From a virus: a DNA stretch of 32,055 nucleotides. This document shows, one piece after another, positions 1 to 8,065 of the stretch (within the stretch, counting starts at the first letter, position 1; every line of letters begins with the position of its first letter). A program made the translations under genes and the position numbers. Under the pieces are notes generated by a model. The model saw only the letters and a list, made by a program, of their open reading frames with translations, did not search any database and was not told the DNA's origin. Location of the stretch: positions 1 through 32,055 of the IMG/VR virus record IMGVR_UViG_3300008259_000802; one strand, 5' to 3'.

Positions 1-665
1 TCCTGCTCGATGCGAACGGAGAGCCTCCGGACGGCCTCCTCGGCCCGATCGACGTCCACCCGCACGCCGCCCTCCTCCATCCGTATTATAACAGGAAAGA
101 GCCTCCGCTCCAGATCATGCACCCGGGCGATCTCGGACATCCGGGTCTCCTGCCACTGATATAGCTTCATCGTCGCGAGCGCATCTTGTTTCGCATATCG
201 TGCCACCATATCCTCAGGCGCTCGTGATATATTTGGCATCTGAGCATTACGAGTCGCACGGCCACCGAAAAGGGCAGCCATCTCGTCGTAGATCTCCGAA
301 TCTTTGCGGGCACCCGCGTATTTTCTAGCCAGAAAATCCAGCTCATATGTGGGTTCGTGTTCGTTGATGAGTGCCGCCCGGATCATGGTACAGTCGATCC
401 GGTCTTCAGGCAGCACCACTCCCGCCTCGCGCAGAAAGTGATAATCGAACTTCAAATTATGACCAACCCAGAGCGTGCGCGGGTTGTTTTTAATCAGGTC
501 ATTTAGCCAATCGATAGATCGAGGATCCGTCCGAACATCGAAATACCAAGTACCTTCGTCCTCCGTACACAGCGAAACCCCAAAAACGCTGTCTTTCCAC
601 CACTTGAGGCCGGTGGTCTCCGTATCGATCACTAACACCTTCGGGTTTTCTATGCGCGGATACAT
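1..665 (-). CDS. polA: DNA polymerase I family (family A), N-terminal 3'-5' exonuclease part, runs off left edge
   Basis: I translated this partial gene from the minus strand; 221 codons lie in the window and the polymerase domain is beyond base 1. All three proofreading exonuclease motifs are present: Exo I DTETTG (D14, E16), Exo II GHNLKFD (N70, D74) and Exo III YAKQD (Y157, D161). The segment ending ERRLFPVIIRMEEGG is the usual entry to the family A polymerase domain, so this should be the replicative polymerase of the phage. The ATG at 665 is preceded by AGAGGGG at good spacing, and it directly follows the TGA of a 31-codon ORF (666-761), so translation is probably coupled. It is the most downstream gene seen in the leftward replication module, with the SSB candidate and two helicases upstream. 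Family assignment is confident; I cannot see the catalytic polymerase residues. Confidence 0.93.
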   Translation of the reverse strand, partial: MYPRIENPKVLVIDTETTGLKWWKDSVFGVSLCTEDEGTWYFDVRTDPRSIDWLNDLIKNNPRTLWVGHNLKFDYHFLREAGVVLPEDRIDCTMIRAALINEHEPTYELDFLARKYAGARKDSEIYDEMAALFGGRATRNAQMPNISRAPEDMVARYAKQDALATMKLYQWQETRMSEIARVHDLERRLFPVIIRMEEGGVRVDVDRAEEAVRRLSVRIEQ

Positions 666-761
666 TCATAACCCCTCTATCATCTTTTGAAATTCTTCCT
701 CTGAGCATGGTTTGACTCTTGTGTGGTACGTACCGCCAATGTGTTCAAAAGTCTTAATCAT
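666..761 (-). CDS. Small 31-residue ORF upstream of the polymerase gene
   Basis: This short ORF begins MIKTFEHIGGTYH and ends EEFQKMIEGL. Its ATG at 761 overlaps the end of the HNH fragment (ATGATTAA), AGGG lies a few bases upstream, and its TGA abuts the polymerase ATG, which is the tight packing seen for real genes here. The peptide has no motif I recognise. It could be a genuine small protein, a leader whose translation couples to the polymerase, or the leftover 3' end of a once longer gene. No evidence beyond position and composition supports function. Confidence 0.45.
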   Translation of the reverse strand: MIKTFEHIGGTYHTRVKPCSEEEFQKMIEGL

Positions 762-1002
762 GTACCCTAGTGTCAGACACCCCGCAATGCTGGCATGATT
801 TAGATACTAAATAATTAACCACATACTGTTGGTTAATTCTTCTTTTTTGGTGTGCTCTTTCTCTAGCTCTGTTTCTTTGTTCATCCGCAGTGGCATAATA
901 GTAATTGCGTTGCTTTTCTTTATATTTTTCGTGTTCAGGGGACCCGGGTTCAAATCTGGGGTTACTGACCTTAATAACAGGTCCCTTCCATCTTCTCGAC
1001 AT
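754..1002 (-). pseudogene. Truncated HNH homing-type endonuclease remnant
   Basis: The 82-residue product has the basic N-terminal region seen in many phage HNH endonucleases (SNPRFEPGSPEHEKYK near residues 12-28, then a lysine/arginine-rich segment) and one CxxC knuckle (CQHCG near residue 70). It stops right after DTRV, where family members normally continue into the first catalytic histidine, a second CxxC and the N and H residues, roughly 45 more residues. The nuclease core is therefore missing. The start is supported by GGGGAG seven bases upstream. It sits between a small replication-region protein and the polymerase, a typical place for a homing endonuclease next to a polymerase gene. 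I infer a decayed mobile endonuclease that lost its 3' end by deletion; the protein may still be made but should be inactive as a nuclease. Confidence 0.72.
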
Positions 1003-1011
1003 ATTAAAACT

Positions 1012-1062
1012 CCCCTTGTCATTCTAAGCATTTTATCACACCCAGACATGACTGACAAGGGG
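1012..1062 (-). promoter_or_regulatory. 10-bp inverted repeat able to sequester the ribosome-binding site of the HNH remnant
   Basis: CCCCTTGTCA and TGACAAGGGG (1012-1021 and 1053-1062) are perfectly complementary with a 31-base loop. In leftward read-through RNA the downstream arm contains the GGGG of the ribosome-binding site of the ORF starting at 1002. The predicted promoter lies in the loop and upstream arm, so RNA started there lacks the upstream arm and leaves the site free. This is the arrangement known from T4 homing endonuclease genes. Confidence 0.65.
1030..1058 (-). promoter_or_regulatory. Predicted sigma70-type promoter with extended -10 before the HNH remnant
   Basis: Read on the minus strand, TTGTCA (1058-1053, 5 of 6 to consensus) is followed after exactly 17 bases by TAAAAT (1035-1030, 5 of 6), and TGA immediately precedes the -10, giving an extended -10. 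Transcription would begin near 1025-1022 and leave a leader of about 20 bases before the ATG at 1002. It would drive the HNH remnant, the 31-codon ORF and the polymerase. It is a match by eye. Confidence 0.65.
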
Positions 1063-1332
1063 CTAATTAAAAGGGAGGTCATCGAATTTCGCACTCAGAT
1101 CGGGTTTGCCTTTGGATCCACTGGGTGGCTCGTCCTTACGAGTGATCGCGATCGAGAAGAATTTCTCACCATCAAGCTTCGATCCTGGACCACCAGTCTT
1201 GATCCACGCAGACATCCAGTATTCCACGCCGTCAACATTAATTGACCCGGTGTATTCAGGGTGTGTATCTTTCTCCTTACGCTTATTTCGCGCAAGCATC
1301 CCTGAATTCGTATTATCATACTCTTTTTTCAT
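1063..1332 (-). CDS. Conserved small phage protein of the replication region, function unknown
   Basis: The 89-residue product starts MKKEYDNTNSGML and contains KDTHPEYTGSINVDGVEYW, a pattern I recognise from a widespread family of small phage proteins found beside replication genes. These often begin with DNTNRG and carry a compact beta-rich core. No catalytic motif is visible. The ATG at 1332 follows GGAGG at six bases, a strong ribosome-binding site. It lies between the SF1 helicase and the HNH remnant in one leftward series. A nucleic-acid-binding role is only a guess from neighbours. I am sure it is a real gene and unsure of function. Confidence 0.85.
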   Translation of the reverse strand: MKKEYDNTNSGMLARNKRKEKDTHPEYTGSINVDGVEYWMSAWIKTGGPGSKLDGEKFFSIAITRKDEPPSGSKGKPDLSAKFDDLPFN

Positions 1333-8042: not shown

Positions 8043-8065
8043 ACACAGTGTCCGGTGATTGACTA
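8037..8065 (-). promoter_or_regulatory. Predicted leftward promoter for the replication module
   Basis: On the minus strand TAGTCA (8065-8060) and a perfect TATAAT (8042-8037) are separated by 17 bases. Transcription would start near 8030, about 20-25 bases before the primase ATG at 8007, and run through the whole replication module. The -10 lies in a palindrome (8027-8042), suggesting repression. Confidence 0.65.

Follow-up and report, generated by a model that had tools for sequence, protein, structure and literature searches.

A hairpin enclosing a promoter-like sequence precedes a decaying HNH endonuclease cassette in the 32,055-nucleotide stretch of viral DNA analysed here (the window; IMG/VR record IMGVR_UViG_3300008259_000802). 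With moderate confidence, we read it as a leader in the style of phage T4, combining a hairpin with an internal promoter, that uses a host-type promoter and is decaying together with its endonuclease. The original prediction, made from the sequence, of a two-state leader in front of a truncated HNH gene is partly supported. Read along the minus strand, a UvrD-like helicase gene is followed by the SSB-like gene, then by the hairpin, the HNH remnant and DNA polymerase A (Table 1).

The leader hairpin and its predicted internal promoter

The arms CCCCTTGTCA and TGACAAGGGG form a perfect 10-bp inverted repeat on the minus strand, with 31 nt in between. TTGTCA and TAAAAT are spaced by 17 nt, a TG lies one base upstream of the -10 hexamer, and the resulting extended -10, TGTGATAAAAT, falls inside the stretch enclosed by the arms. 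The repeat, the promoter and the extended -10 had all been described before and are all present on the minus strand. The repeat had also been said to flank the whole of TTGTCA-17-TAAAAT; this holds for the -10, which is enclosed, but TTGTCA is itself part of arm 1. The earlier description lacked the nested 9-bp stem, several pairs of which are G-U. By its hexamers and extended -10, the promoter is sigma-70-like rather than a phage late or middle promoter, and at 14.5 it outscored every other sigma-70-like match in the window; the best of 20 shuffled windows reached 14.1. Given the position of the -10 relative to the arms and the predicted start, the promoter is placed so that its RNA would omit arm 1. 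An Rfam search gave no meaningful match, a search for the hairpin in phage records gave no match, and a scan for the exact hairpin pattern found the promoter with the gene only in two already known cassettes.

Table 1. Features of the leader, the HNH cassette and the flanking genes
Feature	Position	Strand	Remark
Hairpin arm 1, anti-Shine-Dalgarno, CCCCTTGTCA	1062-1053	minus	begins directly after SSB stop
Hairpin arm 2, TGACAAGGGG	1021-1012	minus	includes Shine-Dalgarno GGGG
-35-like hexamer TTGTCA	1058-1053	minus	within arm 1
-10 hexamer TAAAAT with extended TGTG	1035-1030	minus	TGTGnTAWAAT kept in L190
Nested inner stem-loop, 9 bp	1046-1038 / 1031-1023	minus	9/9 pairs kept in L190
Expected transcription start of internal promoter	1023-1025	minus	inferred from -10 position
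Shine-Dalgarno sequence AAGGGGAG of HNH remnant	1010-1017	minus	overlaps arm 2
SSB-like gene, 89 aa	1063..1332	minus	ends -DDLPFN; stop TAG 1065-1063; phrog_7364 E 5e-16
HNH cassette as left in window, 403 nt	666..1068	minus	531 nt in L028
HNH endonuclease remnant, 82 aa	754..1002	minus	only first Cys pair kept
Junction of 128-nt deletion	763..764	minus	
31-aa ORF MIKTF...	666..761	minus	out-of-frame HNH C-terminal end
DNA polymerase A, 5' part	3..665	minus	exonuclease domain; PF01612 E 3e-16, phrog_17 E 3e-38

The 55-nt hairpin RNA has a predicted folding energy of -24.3 kcal/mol (z -5.4). In read-through RNAs of various lengths, opening the Shine-Dalgarno (SD) sequence was predicted to cost 9.3-10.5 kcal/mol, compared with 1.5-3.1 kcal/mol for internal RNAs starting from 1025-1023; in longer internal RNAs, GGGG was still partly paired (about 0.27 unpaired). 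These predictions agree with the proposals that a stable fold of the read-through RNA hides the GGGG of the ribosome-binding site (RBS) and that RNA starting near 1023, which omits arm 1, leaves it exposed: the SD was closed in leaders folded with arm 1 and open in leaders folded without it. The closed state, however, applies to ribosome-free RNA. Arm 1 is flush with the SSB stop, so a ribosome terminating there would open the site, and read-through RNA is not simply closed. With arm 1 masked by a ribosome at the SSB stop, the predicted SD cost was 1.5-2.7 kcal/mol, and read-through RNA therefore need not be silent.

We also placed leader-dependent SD closure on a common scale, with T4 genes as the positive control. 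The HNH gene of the window scored 8.5, T4 I-TevI 10.6, T4 e 8.2 and T4 segB 4.5, and 19 other window genes scored at most 2.1. T4 nrdC.8, regB and denV were likewise high, so this measure is not specific to endonucleases.

We observed a second promoter-like element, TAGTCA-17-TATAAT with a TG, at 8065 on the minus strand just upstream of the primase gene. It is a likely promoter of the replication genes, and its read-through RNA would extend to the hairpin.

The HNH cassette and its empty sites

The HNH gene is, as originally proposed, truncated. Measured against intact copies, a 128-bp deletion removes residues 81-122 and shifts the frame, and the remnant is left without the catalytic His or the second Cys pair. 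An intact 154-aa HNH protein is encoded by two near-identical contigs (L004/L028 and L005/L031), and the 531-nt cassette of L028 is without the deletion. The catalytic HNH residues missing from the window are present in these copies. The intact copy P0003 matched PHROG 2255 (E 1e-19) and PHROG 3106 (E 2e-18), and the conserved Cys pairs and His/Asn residues of the intact protein are common to both families. In the window, the ATG of the 31-aa ORF overlaps the stop of the remnant and its TGA abuts the ATG of the polymerase, a gene that is cut off at the window end.

A search with the polymerase gathered 42 SSB-polymerase junctions, which cannot be treated as independent, several being near-identical and L151 and L152 belonging to one lineage; 39 are without the cassette and three carry it (L151, L152 and L190). 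Presence and absence at the same site were found in close relatives (L190 versus L175, and L151/L152 versus L153-L156). On the sequences, this is a free-standing HNH cassette inserted between the SSB-like gene and DNA polymerase A, putatively by homing. Most of the empty junctions have no SD, and the polymerase start there overlaps the SSB stop or lies directly against it. This arrangement suggests that SSB-polymerase translational coupling is ancestral and would have been broken by the insertion. Where the cassette is present, the polymerase ATG has an AGAGGGG in front of it. The leader could possibly control the polymerase through transcripts and overlapping ORFs, but the polymerase has this AGAGGGG of its own.

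Several further observations concern the cassette and its surroundings. The SSB-like proteins of all 39 empty sites end in -PF; every cassette carrier, in the window lineage as well as L190, has -PFN instead (1063-1071), so that the cassette adds an Asn after the terminal Phe. The free terminal Phe of bacterial SSB is its partner-binding tip, and because of the added Asn, the insertion may alter SSB interactions. Identity to L028/L031 is about 95% from the polymerase start on (120-648), compared with 99.5% upstream, cassette included, and L028 and L031 also differ from each other in this region. The polymerase start next to the cassette is a possible recombination boundary. On the plus strand at 937-960, inside the HNH frame, GGGGACCCGGGTTCAAATCTGGGG resembles a tRNA T-arm; ARAGORN found no tRNA. 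Several distant HNH relatives sit in or beside tRNA clusters.

A diverged cassette and other HNH leaders

The cassette of L190 lies at the same SSB-polymerase junction and encodes an HNH protein with 63% identity in the matched region and 60% overall. In its sister L175, flanks 90-94% identical to those of L190 are joined without the cassette. The L190 leader, CCCCTCACCACAATGTCCAAGTGTGCTATAATATCACTTGGAAGGATGAGGGG, could be aligned with the hairpin of the window and retains 17 of its 19 pairs. Compensatory changes on both sides were found at three pairs, two in the outer stem and one in the inner, and at several others a change on one side leaves the pairing intact. These compensatory changes had P values of 0.003 and 0.01 under two nulls, in a test of one sequence pair with 21 variable columns and an alignment not fitted to the structure. 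The L190 leader folds on its own at -23.8 kcal/mol (z -4.4) and keeps the extended -10 as TGTGCTATAAT; it has no recognisable -35. The SSB stop abuts arm 1 in both diverged cassettes, as TAG in the window and TGA in L190.

Arm complementarity is thus retained in a diverged relative that keeps the gene, and the original proposal passes its own check on this point, but hiding of the RBS is not what L190 conserves. It has ATA where the window has ATG, and its start codon is 24 nt downstream behind GCGGGG. This start codon and its GGGG lie beyond the hairpin, so the fold does not hide the RBS of L190, whose read-through and internal RNAs are predicted to differ little in SD opening. From the one diverged cassette found, the fold and the promoter appear to be conserved, with RBS hiding seen in the window lineage only. 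A short deletion between ATAT repeats could convert the L190 form to the window form. L004 and L005 were dropped as evidence of conservation, since the whole hairpin is identical in them and relatives this close carry no information.

The direct repeat TTTTAAT at 1003-1009 and 1066-1072 brackets the hairpin and corresponds to TTTTAAT/TTTTAAC in L190; it is possibly a trace of leader or cassette insertion. The sister pair L175 and L190 also has a terminator-like hairpin, GGGGCTTC(A/G)AGCCCCTTTT, just before polA, between SSB or HNH and the polymerase.

Among more distant HNH genes, 9 phage leaders were inspected and 79 IMG/VR loci screened, giving 33 SD-bearing starts including that of the cassette. 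None of the 32 other leaders with a recognisable SD had a helix of at least 8 bp over it; the distant members of PHROG 2255 and 3106 with a recognisable SD differ from the window in having no comparable leader. Because it is absent from these relatives, the hairpin design is a property of the cassette and not of the HNH family. The HNH search found none in plasmids and weak partial matches only in genome_contigs.

An IMG/VR scan for CCCTTGACA...TGTCAAGGG returned promoters with exactly 17-nt spacing and a TATAAT-like -10 inside the repeat (L036, L038, L039, L042-L045, L048-L050 and L053, mostly in low-GC phages). There is usually no nearby ATG, several of the loci have a second CCCCTTGACA promoter downstream, and their opposite strand often reads as a hairpin with a T-run. 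In L055, on the minus strand, a 14-bp SD-covering helix stands right before a 392-aa ORF starting at 1689, with promoter-like sequence between the arms of the repeat; this leader is a possible analogue in another phage.

Known systems, alternative roles and proposed mechanism

Hairpins that hide an RBS have been described for I-TevI, I-TevII, I-TevIII, segB and Aeh1 mobE (PMC2988022). The original comparison with T4 endonuclease genes such as I-TevI is supported: the design matches that of I-TevI, segB and Aeh1 mobE as described in that paper, and our T4 positive control agrees. As in the window, I-TevI of the T4 td intron, along with I-TevII and I-TevIII, is an endonuclease in an early/middle transcription unit; its RBS is hidden by a stable hairpin on read-through RNA, and its internal promoter starts past the first arm. 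T4 I-TevIII also parallels the remnant, its record annotating it as a defective, truncated HNH gene. The I-Tev genes differ in being intron-encoded and in using T4 late or middle promoters, whereas the window has a free-standing cassette, a sigma-70-like promoter with an extended -10 and its -35 hexamer inside arm 1. Because the promoter is host-type, sigma-70-like and not T4 late, the early/late timing of T4 is not transferable. Aeh1 mobE (from an Aeromonas phage) and T4 segB are closer in that they, too, encode free-standing homing endonucleases behind a hairpin that sequesters the RBS (PMC2988022); they differ in belonging to T-even-like phages with T4-type promoters, whereas the window cassette sits at an SSB-polymerase junction, and no sequence relation was found between the window leader and theirs. 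In seg43(25) of Aeromonas phage 25, a very stable hairpin lies immediately upstream of an uncovered RBS, as in L190, although PMC2988022 describes no looped promoter there. As modelled, the window leader would work like the T4-type leaders with a different class of promoter.

Of the other roles that this leader might have, we consider it unlikely that the hairpin serves to tie HNH translation to SSB translation, with the internal promoter secondary. The direct abutment of the SSB stop on arm 1 in the window and L190 is consistent with such coupling, as are the predicted effect of masking arm 1, which brings SD opening down from 10.5 kcal/mol to 2.7, and the ancestral overlap or abutment of SSB and polymerase, without SD, in most empty sites. 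However, coupling leaves the promoter in the loop unexplained, and in L190, 80 nt separate the SSB stop from the start codon, which lies outside the hairpin. It is rather improbable that the hairpin acts on transcription or RNA stability, as a weak terminator, a pause site or a 3' protection of the SSB mRNA combined with a restart promoter. RBS hiding in the window would then be a by-product of a short deletion that moved the ATG close; such a role would fit L190, which retains the fold and promoter and not RBS hiding. GTTTTAA follows the hairpin in both cassettes, and a weak internal terminator in T4 mobE and the stable hairpin upstream of the exposed RBS of seg43(25) offer precedents (PMC2988022). 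By contrast, there are just four U, two bases past the stem, a terminator scan that allows loops of 3-8 only listed nothing, and the downstream polymerase must be transcribed.

We regard it as highly improbable that the repeat is a DNA-level operator that serves a repressor, perhaps the endonuclease, by analogy with I-TevI, which binds its own promoter. The arms span the -35 region and the start region, and the promoters of I-TevI, II and III are overlain by operators, proven or putative, but the two arms start 41 nt from each other, and the changes in L190 preserve RNA pairs, with several inner-stem pairs switching between G-U and Watson-Crick. An operator resembling the homing site was rejected, as the empty insertion site has no similarity to the hairpin or promoter (shuffle P at least 0.8).

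Taken alone, a 10-bp repeat is unremarkable in 32 kb: the window has three perfect ones (two overlapping), compared with 1.5 in shuffles. The combination of helix and looped promoter is rare. At joint thresholds of a helix of at least 10 bp over GGGG and a promoter match of at least 10/12 with its -10 in the loop, 15 of 700,000 shuffled leaders had both, two of them also with the TG, a chance of about 0.001 per window when its 61 SD-bearing starts are allowed for. Among these 61, the SD-hiding helices of other independent genes do not exceed 6 bp. Although 10-bp repeats can be expected by chance in this much sequence, this joint probability and the compensatory changes in L190 make it very hard to believe that an ordinary promoter and an RBS simply happen to be complementary.

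In the T4-style reading that we prefer, RNA reading through from the upstream replication genes would fold into a two-tier hairpin in which arm 1, doubling as the -35 region, covers the HNH RBS and would reduce translation. RNA started at the looped extended -10 would begin past arm 1 and have an open RBS, and a ribosome finishing SSB at the stop flush with arm 1 would open the RBS transiently. HNH translation would occur only on short RNAs made from the cassette's own promoter or while a ribosome is terminating on SSB, giving a leader of two or three states: closed on ribosome-free read-through RNA, open on internal RNA and transiently open on SSB termination. Because the endonuclease core has been deleted, the window leader now precedes a fossil, and its remaining role may be no more than to supply transcripts that run into the polymerase gene. 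A broader reading, which we offer as tentative and doubtful, is that the leader is a self-contained, transferable module of the HNH cassette, wired to the SSB stop, in which the fold and the extended -10 are selected together independently of RBS hiding; one 51-nt sequence would then read transcription, SSB translation and endonuclease translation.

The literature documents hairpin and internal-promoter control of selfish endonucleases in T-even-like phages. That an unrelated tailed phage had separately evolved its own copy, with a host-type promoter, would point to a general need for such control among endonuclease cassettes. With intact, decayed, diverged and empty sites all found at one junction, the life cycle of such a cassette is directly testable.
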